Of a stretch of 62,720 nucleotides of DNA, positions 1,481-22,748 are shown one piece after another (positions within the stretch are counted from its first letter, which is position 1; every line of letters starts with the position of its first letter). A program made the translations under genes and the position numbers. The stretch is taken from positions 1 to 62,720 of the forward strand of contig CALKES010000017.1 in the NCBI GenBank assembly GCA_938084715.1, in the 5' to 3' direction. Below the pieces are notes generated by a model. That model did no database searches, was not told the origin of the DNA, and saw nothing but the letters and a program-made list of their open reading frames with translations. This DNA is from Candidatus Bipolaricaulota bacterium (GTDB lineage: Bacteria > Bipolaricaulota > Bipolaricaulia > Bipolaricaulales > Bipolaricaulaceae).

Positions 1481-1772
1481 GTAGACCGTTCGTCAGGAAG
1501 CCAGGGGAGGCAGGTTCAAGACGTTTCTCGTCGACCCTAACCCACAGATTGGGGCTCCCCTGGTGGACTGGTGGGCCCCACGACCACCCGGTGGCTACCC
1601 GGGCTGCCTCCCCGTTCTCTGCGGCCGCCAAGTCTTCCTCCTAAGCCCCCCCTCTTGAGGGTGCTCCCTCCAGAGTACCGAGCGACCCCTCTCTGGGGTG
1701 CCCTGTAACGCATGTTACAGACAGGAACGGAGGTAATGTCTATACTCCCTCCAGCAGGGAGGCACCGGCTTG
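1481..1772 (+). promoter_or_regulatory. Intergenic region with inverted repeat and -10 box before the second surface gene
   Basis: Apart from the terminator, this non-coding gap holds a perfect inverted repeat CTGTAAC-GCAT-GTTACAG (1703-1720) and a TATACT -10-like box (1741-1746). The right arm of the repeat includes TTACAG, which could serve as a poor -35 (spacer 20). The ribosome binding site GGGAGG (1757-1762) sits inside a possible hairpin CTCCCT-CCAGC-AGGGAG (1745-1761). The repeat looks like an operator placed over the -35 region; that reading is inference. I see no gene in 1481-1700. Confidence 0.4.
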
Positions 1773-3221
1773 ATGCGATTCCTCCTGTTGGGTCTACTGG
1801 TTGGGGTTGTCGTGGGGGCTGCAGGACAGCCACCAGTTGCCAGGTCTTGGGTTGTATACGTACAGTCGGGGACCACTGTCCAGTTCAGCCTTTGGGACCA
1901 TCCGGAACAGGCCGACGCTCTGGGCTACGAGTTTACGGTGATCGTACCCCCGGCATACGGTCGGCTGGGGGGGACGCCACCCGTCCTTTCTTACACCCCA
2001 TCTCCCGGTTTCTATGGGCGGGACCATCTGCAGTACGTCGTCCAGGACAGACAAGGCCATGTCGACTCAGGGACGGTTCGCATCGTGGTCCTCCCGGCCG
2101 TCACCCTCGGCCGTCCCCCAGTCCCGGGTCTGTCCGTCGCCTACCGGGGGGGCTTCGCCGCAGACGCTCTTGGAGTGAACTTGAGCCGCTTTGAGGCTTC
2201 TCTCACTGCAAGGACAGGGTTTCTCGAGCAGGGCTTTCGTGCAGTAGGCAACGAACTCGGGCTGACCGAGGTTGCTGCTACGTCCCGCGTCACTCTTGTT
2301 GGAGTGGGGGTGGCGGGGTTTGAAATACCCCTCTCGGTACACCTCACATTCAACCCATCCCTTCCTGGTCTGTCGAGCGCCGCCGCCGCGGGAAGGGCAG
2401 GGTTTGGAGATCTACATACTGCTTTCACCGCGACCTACTATGCGGCCAATCCTTCTCTGAGCTCCCTTGTTCTCGTAGGCACCACCCTTGTAGGGGAGCT
2501 CATGGTGGAGGTCCGCGGCTCCTGGCGGTTCATCCCCGTTGAGTTTGACACACTGACCGTACTGCTGCGGGGGCCCGGTCCGGCGTTCGGGTGCCCGAAC
2601 TGCCCACTTCAGCTCGAAGTGGCGTTCTCCTTTACAAAGAGCAATGGGTTAAGGGAACTCCGCGGGAGGTTGCGAAATCTCCCTCTACCCTGTCCAGCTT
2701 GCGCTACACTGCGGGCTGTCCTTGATCTTGACATTTCGTTTACAGCGGCCGAAAAGAAGCTCGAGCCTACGCTTCGGCTTGAGTCGCCCTTGGATCTATG
2801 CGTGAGGCCACTCGTTGAGTTGGTTCCGCGGGCGTCGGGTCTTGGTTGGGCCGGGGTTCGACTATATGGCTTTGAGGTCAAGTGTACTTTCGTTGGGGGA
2901 TACGAGTTCCGGGCTGCGACCTCCTTCGCGGACGAGAAAAACGCCGCGGTGACCGGGGATGCCCGGTTCTTTGAGGTCTGGCGAATCGTGGGCCCCGTCG
3001 GCTCTTGCTGCGGCCCTCAGGGTTGGTGGCGGCTCTCGACCTACTTCGTGCGGACCTCGGACAACCTGTTTGGGTGGGGTATGTCGGAGGTAGAGCTGAA
3101 GCTACCGTTTGGGTATGAGTTCTCTCTTCAGCTGTCGGCGAGAATGGGCGCAGTGGACCCGGGGGATCCCGGTAAAACCTGGTCAGTAAAGCTAGAGCTC
3201 AGCGCTCTCCTCGGCGGTTAG
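1773..3221 (+). CDS. Secreted Ig-like/beta-rich protein, possible outer-membrane or sheath protein
   Basis: The ATG at 1773 follows GGGAGG by ten bases; a TTG at 1770 is in frame directly before it. The protein has 482 residues. Residues 1-19 form a signal peptide (LLLGLLVGVVVGAAG), and about 20-110 form a cadherin-like Ig domain (PAYGRLGGTPPVLSYTPSPG, then DHLQYVVQD). The remaining 370 residues are beta-rich with paired cysteines (CPNCP, CPAC) and no recognised domain. The stretch around residues 270-390 resembles part of the secreted protein encoded at 5996-7246: both have an LxLxVxFxFTK motif, an FTxxxKxL motif, and then a GxRLxxxxxxxVxxGGxYxF pattern. I read them as paralogues of a lineage-specific envelope family. 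Composition is less GC-rich than in the genes beyond 3.4 kb. Confidence 0.65.
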   Translation: MRFLLLGLLVGVVVGAAGQPPVARSWVVYVQSGTTVQFSLWDHPEQADALGYEFTVIVPPAYGRLGGTPPVLSYTPSPGFYGRDHLQYVVQDRQGHVDSGTVRIVVLPAVTLGRPPVPGLSVAYRGGFAADALGVNLSRFEASLTARTGFLEQGFRAVGNELGLTEVAATSRVTLVGVGVAGFEIPLSVHLTFNPSLPGLSSAAAAGRAGFGDLHTAFTATYYAANPSLSSLVLVGTTLVGELMVEVRGSWRFIPVEFDTLTVLLRGPGPAFGCPNCPLQLEVAFSFTKSNGLRELRGRLRNLPLPCPACATLRAVLDLDISFTAAEKKLEPTLRLESPLDLCVRPLVELVPRASGLGWAGVRLYGFEVKCTFVGGYEFRAATSFADEKNAAVTGDARFFEVWRIVGPVGSCCGPQGWWRLSTYFVRTSDNLFGWGMSEVELKLPFGYEFSLQLSARMGAVDPGDPGKTWSVKLELSALLGG

Positions 3222-3478
3222 GCGATCGCCAGCCAGCTTCTTGGGCTAAGACCGGGCGGTTCAGGGGGATGGAAAACAGTCCCGTCGAGGCCGTCATAAC
3301 CGAGGAACGGGCCACCACCCCACGGGCACCCCACCCAGCTCAACAGATGTTCCACCCGCGCGCAATCCTGTCGATATGGTTTGCCCGCGAGAGCCCACCG
3401 CCCCCGAGGGGGGGGCGCGCCTCGGACAGGCGGGCTACACCACATGACTGGCCGAAGTTTTCTTCGTCTTCGCAGCCG
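3222..3478. other. Intergenic region between convergent genes
   Basis: No convincing gene is present. A GC hairpin (CGCCCCC 3399-3405 with GGGGGCG 3411-3417) and a small CGAAG-TTTT-CTTCG stem (3453-3466) just after the mutS stop are candidate terminators for the two converging transcripts. Confidence 0.4.
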
Positions 3479-5959
3479 TCAGCTGGCGGCTTCCCGTGTC
3501 TTGCCCAGCTCCCGCTTCAGCCGGTAGAGGAGGTCGAGGGCCTCGAGGGGGGTCAACCGGTCGGGGTCCATCTCCCGGAGGAGTTGAAGGGCCGCGGGTT
3601 CCGAGGAGAACAGGGGGAGCTGCTCTGGCCGCGCAGGGACCGGCGGAGCATCGGCTCCCCTCAGGATCCGCTCCGCCTCCCGCAGGACCTCCTCGGGAAG
3701 CTGGGCCAGCCGGGCCACGTGGACCCCGTAGCTCCGCTCGGCCACCCCGGGAAGGATCCGGTACAGGAACACGACCTCCCCCTTCCACTCCCGAGCCGCG
3801 GCGTGGAGGTTCACCACGCCGGGGACCTCGTCCGCAAGGCGGGCGAGCTCCCGGTAGTGGGTGGCAAAAAGCGTTGTGCAGCCCACCCGCTCGGCGAGGT
3901 ACCGGGCGATCGCCCAGGCGAGGGCCATCCCGTCGTGGGTGCTCGTCCCCCGCCCGAGTTCGTCGAGGATCACCAGGGATCGCCGGGTCGCCCCGCGGAG
4001 GATCCCCGCTGCCTCGGTCATCTCGGCCATGAACGTGGACAGCCCTCCCGTAAGGGCGTCGGACGCCCCCACCCGGGCGTAGATCCGGTCAAAGATCGGA
4101 AGCTCGGCCTCCTTGGCTGGGACGAAGGAGCCCATTTGAGCCAGCAACGCAATGAGGGCCGTCTGGCGCAGGAACACCGACTTCCCAGCCATGTTCGGTC
4201 CCGTGACCACGGCGAGGTGGACCCCGGGGACGAGGTGGAGGTCGTTGGGGACAAACCGGGTCACCGTCTCGACCATTGGGTGTCGGCCCTCGGCAATCCG
4301 GAGGGGGCCGTCGGTGAACCGGGGCCGGGTGTAGCCCCGCCGCCGGGCCACCTCAGCCAGGGAGGCCAGGGCGTCGAGCTCCGCGAGGGCCTCCCCCACC
4401 CCCCGTAGGGCACCCAGGGCCGCCGCGACCCGGTCGCAGAGGGAGGAGAAGATCTCCCTTTCCCGTTCGGTGATCGCCTCCTCCAGGGCCGCGAGGCGGT
4501 CGGCCTTGGCGGCGAGGACGTCGCTTGTGAACCGCTCCCCCCCGGTGAGGGACTGCCGCCTCCGCCAGTCGGGAGGGACCTTCCCCAGATGCGCCCGGGT
4601 GACCTCGAAGTAGTAGCCGAACACCCGGTTGTAGCCGACCTTGAGGCTGGGGATCCCGGTCCGGGCTCGCTCCTCCCCCTCCAGGCCGGCGATCTCCCCC
4701 CGCACCCCCTCCGCCTCCTCCCGCCGGGAGTCCAGCACCGGGTCGTAGCCGGAGGCGATCACCGGACCCTCCCCCAACGCCAGCGGAGGGGGGTCCACAA
4801 GGGCCCGCCGGAGGTCGGCCCCGAGGTCCACCGGCGCGGCCTCCAGGGCCCGGGAAATACGGACCAGCAGTTCCGGGATGGGGGGAGGGAGCTCGAGCAG
4901 GGCCTGCCGGGTTTTCTCCGACACCTCCAGGCTCCGGGCGAGGGCCAGGAGATCTCCCGGAGAGAGGCTTCCTGTGGCCGCCCGTCCAAGGAGCCGGGGG
5001 AGGTCCCCGCACCGGGCCCACTCCAGGCGCTCGGCGAGGCCGGACCGGAGCAGGGCGTCCACGGCGTCGAGCCGTTCCTCGATCGCCTCCCGGCGGACAA
5101 GGGGGGCAAGGACCCACCGCCGCAGGAGCCTGCGGCCCATCGGCGTCCGCGTCCGGTCAAGGACGGATAGAAGGGTCACCCCGCCCTCGGGCCGGATCGG
5201 AGCCACGAGCTCCAGCGACCGGACGGTGAACGGATCGAGGACCAGCACCTCCCCCCCGACGGTGGGGGGCTGGAGGTGGGCAAGCTCCCCCACCGTTGCC
5301 GTGAGGTACCCCAGCACCGCGCCGGCGGCCCTGCGGGCCAACGGGTAGGCCAACAGCGCCCCCGGGAACCGCTGGTCCAGGGCCTCGGCCGCAAACTCGC
5401 CAACCGGCCGGGGGGTGGAGGCCCCCGGCAGGGGGACAGGGGGGGGCCAACCCTCGGGGAGAAGCCACTCCGCCGCCCCCAGGCGTGCCGCGAGCGCCGG
5501 GAGCTCCCCCAGGGGCACCTCGTCGGCCCAAAACTCCCCGGACGCCGCCTCGGCCCACGCCACCCCCACCCGGTCCCCCTCAGGCCACAGGGAGGCGAGG
5601 AACGCGTCGGACCCCGGTTCCAACGCCCCCTCCTCGAGAACCGTCCCCGGCGTGAGCACCCGGACCACGGCCCGCCTAAGGAGGCTCTTCCCCTTCCCCG
5701 GCCGCTCGAGCTGGGGCCCCAGGGCCACCTTGTACCCCCGGCGGAGGAGCTTCTGAATGTAGAGCTCCGCCTTGCGAACCGGAACCCCGGCCATCGGGAC
5801 CCCATCCCGGCTCGTGAGGACAATCTCCAGCTCCCTCGAGACGGTCTCCGCATCGTCGTAGAACGTCTCGTAGAAGTCGCCGAGCTGGAAAAAGAGGAGG
5901 GCGTCCGGGTGGCGGGCCTTGAGGTCGTGGTACTGCCGCATGACCGGGGTGAGTTCCAT
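3479..5959 (-). CDS. mutS: DNA mismatch repair protein MutS
   Basis: This is the mismatch-recognition ATPase that clamps onto mispaired DNA and signals repair. It has 826 residues, normal for MutS1. The N-terminal mismatch-binding domain keeps the Phe-x-Glu motif (GDFYETF, F29 and E31), which separates it from MutS2. The connector, lever and clamp regions follow, and the C-terminal ATPase carries Walker A GPNMAGKS, Walker B LDELGRGTSTHDG and the FATHYRELA segment. No mutL is adjacent. It lies 36 bases behind the preceding gene on the same strand, so read-through is likely. A TATACT box nine bases before the ATG (5974-5969) could also give it its own near-leaderless transcript. Confidence 0.97.
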   Translation of the reverse strand: MELTPVMRQYHDLKARHPDALLFFQLGDFYETFYDDAETVSRELEIVLTSRDGVPMAGVPVRKAELYIQKLLRRGYKVALGPQLERPGKGKSLLRRAVVRVLTPGTVLEEGALEPGSDAFLASLWPEGDRVGVAWAEAASGEFWADEVPLGELPALAARLGAAEWLLPEGWPPPVPLPGASTPRPVGEFAAEALDQRFPGALLAYPLARRAAGAVLGYLTATVGELAHLQPPTVGGEVLVLDPFTVRSLELVAPIRPEGGVTLLSVLDRTRTPMGRRLLRRWVLAPLVRREAIEERLDAVDALLRSGLAERLEWARCGDLPRLLGRAATGSLSPGDLLALARSLEVSEKTRQALLELPPPIPELLVRISRALEAAPVDLGADLRRALVDPPPLALGEGPVIASGYDPVLDSRREEAEGVRGEIAGLEGEERARTGIPSLKVGYNRVFGYYFEVTRAHLGKVPPDWRRRQSLTGGERFTSDVLAAKADRLAALEEAITEREREIFSSLCDRVAAALGALRGVGEALAELDALASLAEVARRRGYTRPRFTDGPLRIAEGRHPMVETVTRFVPNDLHLVPGVHLAVVTGPNMAGKSVFLRQTALIALLAQMGSFVPAKEAELPIFDRIYARVGASDALTGGLSTFMAEMTEAAGILRGATRRSLVILDELGRGTSTHDGMALAWAIARYLAERVGCTTLFATHYRELARLADEVPGVVNLHAAAREWKGEVVFLYRILPGVAERSYGVHVARLAQLPEEVLREAERILRGADAPPVPARPEQLPLFSSEPAALQLLREMDPDRLTPLEALDLLYRLKRELGKTREAAS

Positions 5960-20358: not shown

Positions 20359-22230
20359 CTAGCCGATGATGTCCCCGTACCAGACGACGATCTTCACCTT
20401 GGAGCTCATCGTCACGGTGATCGAGTAGTACTCCCTCCGGGCGTCCCAGGTCCCGGTCTTCCGGGTCGGGGTCGTGGCGTCCCCCACGTACTCATCGTAG
20501 TAGAGAGGCGCCCGACCGTAGGCTCCACCGGAGATCCGGCCCGGGAAGCGGAGCGTCACCGTCGTTCCCGGGCTGAACGAGGCGGTGAACGGGGTCACCC
20601 GATCTGCGGTCTCCCCGATGGCCCGCACCGGGACCTTCAGCTCCTCGTACCCCGGCGTCACGCTCACCTGCCGCCGGGCGTAGACCTCGAGGGTGTAGGT
20701 GATGGGCCGAATGATGATCGGCCCGATGATCGTGGGGAGACAGGCCTCCAGCTCAACGGTGGCCTCTGCTGTCTTGGTCCGGCCGGCAGCGTCGTTCGCC
20801 TGGACTCGCACCGTGACCTTCCCGCCGCCGGAGAGGGCGGCCCGCAGGCCCACCGACCCAGAGGCCGGGAACCCGTCGATGATCGCCTGGGTCCTCCCAT
20901 CGGGGTAGACGAGGCTCACCGGCCCGATGTGAATCGGCGAGGTGCCACCGCTCGCCTGCCAGTACACGGTGACGAGGTGGCTGTAGTCCTTGTCGCACAC
21001 CTTCTCCACCGCCACCCGGGTGATCTGGACCGTGAGGTCCGGAACCCGGGCCGTGGCCGTCCGAAGGGTAACCGAGTACCGGAAGAGCTCGCAGTTCCTC
21101 CCGTCGTAGAGCCCAAAGAGAACGTCGTAGCTTGCCCCCGCGGTGGGGAGGGTCCCGGTGAGGATCCCGACACCGCCTGCAAGGTCGAGGGCGAGCTGGG
21201 CCCCGGTGGGGAGGTTCGAGGAGATCGTCGTCACTTTGGTGATCCCCGCGGAGCGGAACCGGGAGAGGTCACCGCTCGGGATCGCCTTCGAGGTGAGGAG
21301 GTGAAGCCCCGTCGCGACCTCACCGAAGTCCCACTTGAGGCCGGTGAAGGGCGGACACTGGGCCGTCGCCGCCGTGGAGACGGTGATCGTGAGCCGAACC
21401 ACCGGGCACTTGTTCCGATCGAGGAGGTTGTAGACGATCGTCCACCGGCCCCCTTCCCGGGGTACCGTCCCCTGGAGCCGGCCCTGCCGCGAGGAGAGGA
21501 GGAGCTCGAAGTTGAGCCCGGAGGGCAAGGTCGAGCTCACCCGCGCGGCGTCGACCACCCCAAGCGAGGTCACCGCGCTCGTGAGGTCTGCGGGGAAGCC
21601 CTTCGTCGTGTTCACGCTGCTTCCGGCCGTCACCTGACCGAAGTCCCAGGCGAGCTCCCGCGTCGGGGGGCAGCCCGGGGTTGCCGGAACGTAGAGGTCG
21701 CACGTCGGCCGGAGGCAGTTCGGGTCAATGAACGTCCGGATGTTGGCCTCGATGCTCGGGACGATCTCGACCGACGTGGAGGCGGTGGCCGCCACCCCCG
21801 CGCTCGCCTCTGCTTCCGCCAGGGCGACGGCGCATGCCTGGACAAGTGCCGCCACGGCCGCCGAAGCCTCGGCATCCGCCTGGGCACACGCTGCCGCCGA
21901 CGCCGACGCATCGGCGTGGGCCCGGGCGCAGGCGGTCACAAGGGCCTGGGCCGCGGCCTCCGCCCGGGCCACGGCCTGGGCCTCCGCCTGGGCCTCGGCG
22001 CTCGCCGCCGAGGCCTGACTGAGGAGCGTGGCTACGCTCAGCCCGTCGAGGAGCTTCTGGGCCGCCGTCGCCACTGTCTGAGCTTGAGCCGCTGCCAGGG
22101 CCGCCGCCTGGGCCTTCGCCAAGGCCGCAACGTCGGCAAGGAACGGCTGATGGGTGGTCTGTCCGAGAGTCGGAACGAACGTACCGGCTAGGAGACAGGC
22201 CACGACGAGGAAAGTCCCTGTTCTCGCCAT
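20359..22230 (-). CDS. Secreted protein with Ala-rich helical stalk and twin beta repeats
   Basis: I do not recognise this 623-residue protein. A signal peptide (cut near residue 23) is followed by a strikingly Ala-rich region (residues 32-150) with Gln, Glu and Asp in helix-friendly spacing and a few Cys and His. It is probably a long helix or coiled-coil stalk. Two homologous beta modules of about 101 residues follow, at 187-287 and 292-392, each opening with CPP-x4-L-x-WDFG-x-V, passing an S-x-LP-[ST]-G motif and ending in a C-x5-[TY]-x-[TV] strand. A Fibronectin/Ig-like segment (about 398-495) and a beta-rich tail complete it. AGGAGG lies eight bases before the ATG. A surface spacer or sheath protein, like coiled-coil Omp-alpha in architecture only, is plausible. 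Confidence 0.7.
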   Translation of the reverse strand: MARTGTFLVVACLLAGTFVPTLGQTTHQPFLADVAALAKAQAAALAAAQAQTVATAAQKLLDGLSVATLLSQASAASAEAQAEAQAVARAEAAAQALVTACARAHADASASAAACAQADAEASAAVAALVQACAVALAEAEASAGVAATASTSVEIVPSIEANIRTFIDPNCLRPTCDLYVPATPGCPPTRELAWDFGQVTAGSSVNTTKGFPADLTSAVTSLGVVDAARVSSTLPSGLNFELLLSSRQGRLQGTVPREGGRWTIVYNLLDRNKCPVVRLTITVSTAATAQCPPFTGLKWDFGEVATGLHLLTSKAIPSGDLSRFRSAGITKVTTISSNLPTGAQLALDLAGGVGILTGTLPTAGASYDVLFGLYDGRNCELFRYSVTLRTATARVPDLTVQITRVAVEKVCDKDYSHLVTVYWQASGGTSPIHIGPVSLVYPDGRTQAIIDGFPASGSVGLRAALSGGGKVTVRVQANDAAGRTKTAEATVELEACLPTIIGPIIIRPITYTLEVYARRQVSVTPGYEELKVPVRAIGETADRVTPFTASFSPGTTVTLRFPGRISGGAYGRAPLYYDEYVGDATTPTRKTGTWDARREYYSITVTMSSKVKIVVWYGDIIG

Positions 22231-22269
22231 GCCCTACCACCTCCTCCCCCCGGAAGGTGGGCAGACGAT

Positions 22270-22275
22270 CACTAT
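22270..22275 (-). promoter_or_regulatory. Possible -10 box for the Ala-rich protein gene
   Basis: TATAGT on the minus strand lies about 40 bases upstream of the start codon. A TTGAAA lies only five bases upstream of it, so no well-spaced -35 is seen. The surrounding 30 bases are AT-rich compared with the rest of the window. Confidence 0.35.
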
Positions 22276-22409
22276 ACACTTTTTCAAGGATGAAGGTGTC
22301 GAGCAAAGGCCAACGCTCACGCCCGCCTTCCCTAGGCTATTTTCCTGGGGGCGGGAGCGCATGGCGGAAGACAGCGAGCCGGGTACCATGTTTCCCGGAG
22401 GTGATCGGG

Positions 22410-22748
22410 ATGAAGCTCACCAGGTACCACTTCGGGCGGATCGAGGTGGACGGAGTGGTCTACGAGCACGACCTCGCCGTGACGCCGACGGAGGTCCGGG
22501 AGTGGCGGCGGAGGGAGGGGCACGCGGTCCACCCAGAGGACCTCGAGCTTGCCCTCGCCGCCGGGCCCCAGGTCCTCGTGATCGGAACCGGCTTCTCGGG
22601 GATGCTCCGCGTGACGAGGGAGGCCGAGCGGGCTCTCCGGGACCGGAAGGTGGAGCTCGTCGCCGAGCGGACGGCGGAGGCGGTGGAGGCCTTCAACGAG
22701 CTCGCCCCCTCCCGGCGGACCTGCGCCCTCCTCCACCTCACCTGCTAG
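22410..22748 (+). CDS. Mth938/DUF498-domain protein
   Basis: This 112-residue protein matches the Mth938 (DUF498, NDUFAF3-like) fold. It has YHFGRIEVDGVVYEHDL at the start, a central VLVIGTGFSGMLRV that forms the conserved G-T-G-x-x-G loop, and the FNEL segment near the end. The strong site GGAGGTGATC sits three to four bases before the ATG. The biochemical function of bacterial members is not established. It stands alone before the M42 peptidase gene. Confidence 0.85.
   Translation: MKLTRYHFGRIEVDGVVYEHDLAVTPTEVREWRRREGHAVHPEDLELALAAGPQVLVIGTGFSGMLRVTREAERALRDRKVELVAERTAEAVEAFNELAPSRRTCALLHLTC

Follow-up and report, generated by a model that had tools for sequence, protein, structure and literature searches.

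The window, by which we mean the whole stretch of 62,720 nucleotides that was analysed, is part of a genome of 1.38 Mb from a Candidatus Bipolaricaulota bacterium. It contains a gene for a protein of 623 amino acids with a probable leader, an alanine-rich stretch, a linker and a string of predicted beta domains. The open reading frame has exactly the limits and the strand given in the first row of Table 1, and it is the only match to this gene in its own genome. Below, the alanine-rich stretch is called the stalk, the beta domains the head, and the whole product the rod protein.

Table 1. Features of the rod-protein gene and its neighbour, in coordinates of the window.
Feature	Coordinates	Strand	Basis
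Whole gene, 623 aa, short form of the putative rod protein	20359..22230	-	ORF
Signal peptide, residues 1-23, probable cleavage between TLG and QTT	22162..22230	-	By reading
Ala-rich alternating stalk remnant, residues 31-150	21781..22140	-	Sequence composition
Site where 32 stalk residues of relatives are absent, about residue 90-96	21943..21963	-	Diagonal shift 7 to 39 against L039
Site where about 614 stalk residues of relatives are absent, about residue 142-146	21793..21807	-	Diagonal shift 39 to 653 against L039
Linker, residues 151-186, with Cys172 and Cys177	21673..21780	-	pLDDT below 50 over most of it
Module 1 (CPP...WDFG), residues 187-291, predicted Ig-like, Cys187 and Cys275	21358..21672	-	Sequence, AF2
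Module 2 (CPP...WDFG), residues 292-396, predicted Ig-like, Cys292 and Cys380	21043..21357	-	Sequence, AF2
Third beta-sandwich (FN3/Ig-like), residues about 397-498, Cys412 and Cys497	20737..21042	-	AF2, VIA-align
C-terminal beta domain, residues about 499-623	20362..20736	-	AF2, lower confidence: blocks mostly 61-81, linker 36, end 50
Divergent neighbour, DUF498 family	22257..22748	+	Pfam; adjoins the stalk gene in several relatives too

Most of the aligned relatives begin as the window copy does, with a hydrophobic stretch, a small residue and then a Q. The window protein has no useful match in Pfam (best E 0.056), and a PHROGs search with it gave nothing meaningful. A Pfam scan at E 1 found no SLH domain in it. 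By reading there is also no membrane anchor in this protein, as its end, ...VKIVVWYGDIIG, has no hydrophobic stretch of about 20 residues. No promoter was found for the gene, and its single terminator-like site scores no better than chance. The neighbours of the gene look like housekeeping genes (DUF498, an M42 peptidase, an alpha/beta hydrolase and, by reading, a photolyase-like gene), and none of them stood out as an operon or partner gene, an anchor gene or an exit route through the outer membrane.

The original prediction described a helical region of 120 residues made almost purely of Ala, Gln, Glu, Asp and Val. The region is there (residues 31-150), while 'almost purely' is somewhat strong: the five residues sum to 72%, with 11 Leu, 8 Ser and 5 Thr besides. 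Alanine accounts for 57 of the 120 positions, against 36 in the Ala-richest 120-residue window found in 1000 shuffled versions of the protein.

Matches to the rod protein occur in 48 of 100 genomes, the window's own included, some of them through short pieces only. Eight loci were found independently. Six of these are named as Acetothermia or Bipolaricaulota/Bipolaricaulis. The others are a locus in a MAG that carries the label Thermotoga sp. and a doubtful match in Lachnospiraceae. The set of loci used for comparison has 18 members from 16 distinct genomes, where L035 and L043, and likewise L036 and L040, are the same contigs. A script placed the stalk bounds by a rule of 14 Ala per 40 residues. 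Two loci, L032 and L034, are truncated on the N-terminal side and were left out, which leaves 14 loci with a complete stalk, all from Bipolaricaulota-type MAGs.

These 14 relatives are far longer than the window protein. Their open frames run to 1205-1636 amino acids from stop to stop, and the stalk is 798-822 residues long in 13 of them and 901 in L051. In the long relatives a single frame covers everything: window residues 1-155 match its N-terminal part, and residues 74-623 its C-terminal part. A diagonal analysis against L039 found the two proteins collinear but for 2, 4, 32 and 614 extra residues in L039, all even numbers. Given the relatives' long frames, the 120-residue stalk of the window is a remnant of a stalk of about 800 residues. 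The idea that the window protein is the native form was dropped, since relatives join its N- and C-terminal pieces in one long frame. Judged by sequence, the family form has a hydrophobic leader, then a stalk of about 800 residues with alternating alanines and an amphipathic alpha-helical stripe, and then a string of cysteine-bearing beta domains. One relative, G032, has a TAA between the leader and the stalk frame.

In some relatives the gene is truly missing at the DUF498/M42 site. G012 and G016 have other frames next to DUF498 in place of the stalk gene; in G012 (L065, G012:C6:1-9000) this is, by reading, an elongation-factor-like frame at 1643-3943. In G028 there is no stalk-like frame within 12 kb around the M42 gene. 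Contig C45 of G011 is uninformative on this point because it starts at the locus.

The stalk has two regularities. The simpler one is that alanine, which makes up 45-50% of the 14 complete stalks, tends to occupy every second position. In six complete stalks, the autocorrelation of alanine is about +0.3 to +0.6 at even lags and -0.25 to -0.5 at odd lags, and this continues out to lag 39. Cut into blocks of 60 residues, the stalks mostly have an alanine share of 0.6-1.0 on one parity and below 0.4 on the other. From the second block to the end this parity is constant in 13 of the 14; L049 switches once. Two blocks show weaker alternation: the first, and the fifth, which contains a conserved interruption.

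Alternation as such is also found outside the Bipolaricaulota, and hence is not unique. In a scan of viral contigs for a GCNNNN pattern, 112 of the 120 loci listed have at least 19 alternating alanines in some open frame; the matches were mostly simple repeats among the 12 inspected out of at least 120 loci. One viral contig (L178) carries an open frame of 696 residues with a run of 100 alternating alanines, in AKAQAD repeats. Among the relatives, a similar GCNNNN-type pattern matches 26 of 60 genomes, the window's own not being one of them, and the backwards control matches 0. A Pfam search with the stalk alignment matched no family in any of six members. Matches among solved structures look compositional (the best, at 3.3e-6, is transcription elongation regulator 1, and ribosomal eL29 also appears). 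In the open-access papers searched, nothing was found on Bipolaricaulota coiled coils, on Ala-rich Acetothermia proteins or on coiled coils with alanine at every second residue.

The other regularity concerns the large residues (V, I, L, M, F, Y, W and C). Their periodicity was compared with 300 parity-keeping shuffles in 12 of the 14 stalks, with L037 and L049 left out. In 11 of the 12, the peak at a period of 3.53 residues is higher than in any shuffle; in L051, 2 of the 300 reach it. Large residues are mostly on one parity, which means that 3.53 could alias to 4.6. The 3.53 peak is higher than the 4.6 alias peak in all 12 stalks, if barely so in L051 (10.4 against 9.8). The large residues on the alanine parity also share a helix face with those on the other parity, to within 63 degrees in 12 of 12. 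The z-score of this same-face test is over 2 in seven stalks, and 1.90 in L036, 1.43 in L044, 1.42 in L047, 0.77 in L046 and 0.21 in L051. L051 is thus the exception in stalk length and in the period tests, and the other four are weak in the same-face test.

Polar residues lie opposite the stripe, at 140-176 degrees, in all 11 stalks tested, and stalk cysteines lie on it in 8 of 8. The polar faces and the counts of alanine per angle come from a table of residue angles in which the residue itself enters the local phase estimate, a slight bias of which the parity-face test is free. The combination of a 3.53 period with a hydrophobic and a polar face is sequence evidence for a long alpha-helical coiled coil in the relatives. 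AF2 also models the stalk as helical, if at a pLDDT of 49, so the helix that was originally proposed stood up. Only two of the eight helix breaks in this model coincide with the conserved sites, PC...GG and AAGT. At that pLDDT the model does not support any particular helix packing or length.

On its own parity, alanine makes up 78-87% of the residues at every helix angle, which means the alternation is not a helix face. An alpha helix, which has no two-residue face, offers no demonstrated reason for such alternation. In coils of the Alacoil type, alanine regularly takes the core heptad positions. The stalk does something else: its stripe is enriched in large residues, and its alanines are on every face, on one parity. 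We know of no coiled coil that is so regular and so long.

Selection appears to act on this pattern. In six pairs of relatives, the dN/dS of the stalk is 0.038-0.149, which is below that of the C-terminal part in five of the six, so the repeat is held at the protein level. Between 359 of 383 and 391 of 394 alanines are kept in the four pairs where both stalks are complete. Alignment gaps in these pairs are 1-2 residues long, except for one of 11-22 residues in three of them, which we take to be unequal N-terminal ends of the stalk.

At the other end of the protein, the two modules start with CPPTRELAWDFGQ at residue 187 and CPPFTGLKWDFGE at residue 292. Twin homologous modules with a CPP...WDFG signature had been predicted, and this is borne out: 36 of 105 aligned residues are identical, with a local score of 182 against at most 50 in 500 shuffles. 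The predicted module length of 101 residues is not, as the measured spacing is 105. By a regular expression, 14 of 17 sequences have two such modules, L050 and L051 have one, and L047 (G014:C225) has four, in a frame of 1636 residues. The genome of the latter has a second family member, on contig C348.

The head was modelled with AF2 over residues 150-623, using an alignment (A1) of the C-terminal 474 residues of the window protein with seven relatives. The result is a chain of beta domains with a mean pLDDT of 79 and a pTM of 0.32, in agreement with the predicted joining of a stalk to beta modules. Blocks over the two modules reach 79-94. The single domains look good in this model, but their mutual arrangement does not. 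Eight cysteines are invariant in all eight C-terminal regions; the linker and three of the domains have one pair each. No outer-membrane barrel is predicted in residues 150-623, where the last domain is less certain.

The modules had been put down as unrecognised, to be followed up by structure prediction and a profile search. They are probably of Ig-like fold. He_PIG (Pfam PF05345) matches four of the eight members weakly (best E 1.9e-4), although the window's own copy has no match at E 1. Both presumably share an LPxGL...GxL.G.P pattern; unlike He_PIG, the modules have a CPP...WDFG lead strand and paired cysteines. He_PIG is a generic family, and the match leaves the role of the module unfixed. 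NCBIfam, and a sequence search of solved structures with the C-terminal alignment, gave nothing meaningful.

Fold comparisons used the head as a whole. Many Foldseek and VIA-align rows are Ig, FN3 or cadherin chains, and the last domain is barely covered. Foldseek ranks a sperm axoneme chain first, and its matches also include pIgR, protocadherin, fucoidan hydrolases and the S-layer chains of Sap and EA1; TM-scores by query length are low (0.11-0.24 among the 50 matches listed). The Sap and EA1 rows show at most a common fold. VIA-align puts a large-adhesin repeat on top (6xi3, Z 10.0, rmsd 10.6 over 182), where the tool itself warns that a Z of 7-8 is common. The clean single-domain hits, to FN3/Ig chains, fall on the third domain (model residues 246-348); 6mfa, for example, has Z 9.5 and an rmsd of 2.3 over 91.

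About 614 and 32 stalk residues, or about 80% of the rod, are absent from the window copy. It is a poor guide to the native form and should not be taken for it. It could equally well be a decayed or misassembled gene in itself, a matter separate from the role of the family. In favour of this, about 80% is missing from a stalk that is otherwise nearly constant in length, and assemblies do have trouble with this gene. The contigs of G002, G005, G008 and G020 stop within the stalk, and contig C45 of G011 begins inside the DUF498 gene. Contig C2 of G015 follows G025 at 93.5% identity over 3.7 kb, and another 322 bases, which reach the beginning of the stalk gene, match it at 89.8%. From there on the contig resembles the genus of the window instead, at 76.9% to the window over 4 kb, and a frameshift marks the point of change. 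Against it, the window gene reads through the junction without a stop and keeps both frame and alanine phase there, and there is the second, separate loss of 32 residues. Exact DNA repeats could not be demonstrated as a cause of collapse; the longest within the frames of the 18 relative loci are 16-53 bases. Between a real deletion and an assembly collapse of the window stalk, the balance is level.

The switch of genus in G015 (L042, G015:C2:11000-24000) lies inside the stalk gene, at about position 5620-5820, and this contig is probably a chimeric assembly. More generally, MAG assemblies break, splice and perhaps shorten the rod gene, which means that short copies can mislead.

The envelope of these bacteria has some bearing on what the rod may do. 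Three genomes were tested for Omp85 and all three have it, which makes an outer membrane likely. Each of these genomes also has one SLH match; that of G000 is on contig C11 and is not the rod protein. The open frames of this SLH protein are 166-182 residues long in the three genomes (about 160 aa for the protein), with a leader and one SLH domain (Pfam). By reading, they also have a short coil and a C-terminal hydrophobic helix, and adjoin a SecA-like frame. The loci (L072 at G000:C11:30490-30966, L073 and L074) have the layout of Omp-alpha in miniature. Matches to the SLH protein are found in 44 of 60 genomes, including G001 and G003, where no stalk gene was found. Its coil has about 50 residues by eye and would span about 8 nm, versus about 120 nm for a full stalk as one helix. 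As this is the Omp-alpha layout in small, the role of tether appears, on sequence grounds, to be taken by this short protein.

We give an even chance to the reading that the family is a secreted, self-associating coiled-coil rod of the Bipolaricaulota that displays an Ig-like head, as a structural fibre that is adhesive or forms a lattice. Here we infer export route, location, oligomer state and function. The protein would be exported by way of its signal peptide, which was identified by reading. Its helices would then associate along the stripe of hydrophobic residues and cysteines to form a left-handed coiled-coil rod, perhaps stapled by disulfides. Such a rod could be up to about 0.12 µm from end to end if unfolded. 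This figure takes the stalk as a single helix without folds, rising 0.15 nm per residue, and would be half as large for a hairpin. The fixed-length rod might serve as a stand-off or fibre, and present the Ig-like head for adhesion or for a surface lattice.

The main rival builds on the original prediction: a spacer or tether in the periplasm that holds an outer membrane or sheath off the cell body, like Omp-alpha in Thermotoga. A likely outer membrane and a conserved stalk length suit this, and long coils acting as spacers are described for Thermotoga (PMC3387000) and Deinococcus (PMC9388160). The parts of the predicted design that stood are probable export and a helical stalk with beta modules. 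The holding of an outer layer found no support: the rod protein has no SLH match, transmembrane anchor or predicted barrel, while the Omp-alpha layout belongs to the separate protein of about 160 aa, also in genomes where no stalk gene was found. In addition, a stalk of 120 nm would far exceed the span of that protein's coil, except if it were folded back. We consider the spacer unlikely. Ran1, a member of the same phylum, is described in PMC6092417 as having bipolar prosthecae about 0.26 µm wide, with the question of a mono- or diderm envelope left undecided. Parallel rods might stiffen or coat such cell extensions, a role that is distinctly improbable on present evidence. The stalk could also be a silk-like beta structure, of which a two-residue period, in phase over most of the stalk, would be the natural signature, and for which a helix of 3.6 residues offers no reason. 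Large residues nevertheless prefer 3.53 to the alias of 4.6, and their two phases agree on one helix face, which makes beta silk very improbable.

Several known systems resemble the proposed coiled-coil rod in part. Omp-alpha (OmpA1) of Thermotoga maritima is likewise a long alpha-helical coiled-coil rod, from a lineage with an atypical envelope, for which a spacer has been thought of. It is described with an N-terminal SLH domain, a coil of 316 residues and a C-terminal hydrophobic anchor (PMC3387000). The rod protein differs in having neither an SLH match nor an anchor, and in its stalk of about 800 residues, its Ig-like C-terminus and its alternating alanines. The SlpA/OmpM connectors of Deinococcus-Thermus similarly have a signal peptide, a long coil and a large beta C-terminal part. 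SlpA, as PMC9388160 describes it, combines an SLH domain with a trimeric, 30-stranded outer-membrane barrel, whereas separate beta-sandwich domains are predicted here. Honeybee silk shares the Ala-rich coiled coils with small core residues. Its coils have about 210 residues, in four different chains (PMC12284834), and in the passages drawn on here that source gives no every-second-residue rule.

A tentative suggestion, with the chances clearly against it, is that the stalk is a new kind of coiled coil: a rod of about 0.12 µm with alanine at every second residue, its phase unchanged over hundreds of residues, so that a heptad position that is small in one heptad is variable in the following one. 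Helices shifted by one heptad against each other would then interlock on every face, with small residues meeting large ones, and form a cable of fixed length. On this view the alternating alanines would encode the register, as opposed to reflecting a bias in composition.

Should the rod prove real, it would be a strikingly regular and long coiled coil, in a phylum where one member is stalked and the envelope plan is undecided. It also poses a puzzle, in that an alpha helix has no two-residue face and yet alanines at alternate positions are maintained by selection across hundreds of residues. Separately, the short Omp-alpha-like protein may offer a testable handle on the question of an outer membrane tethered close to the wall.
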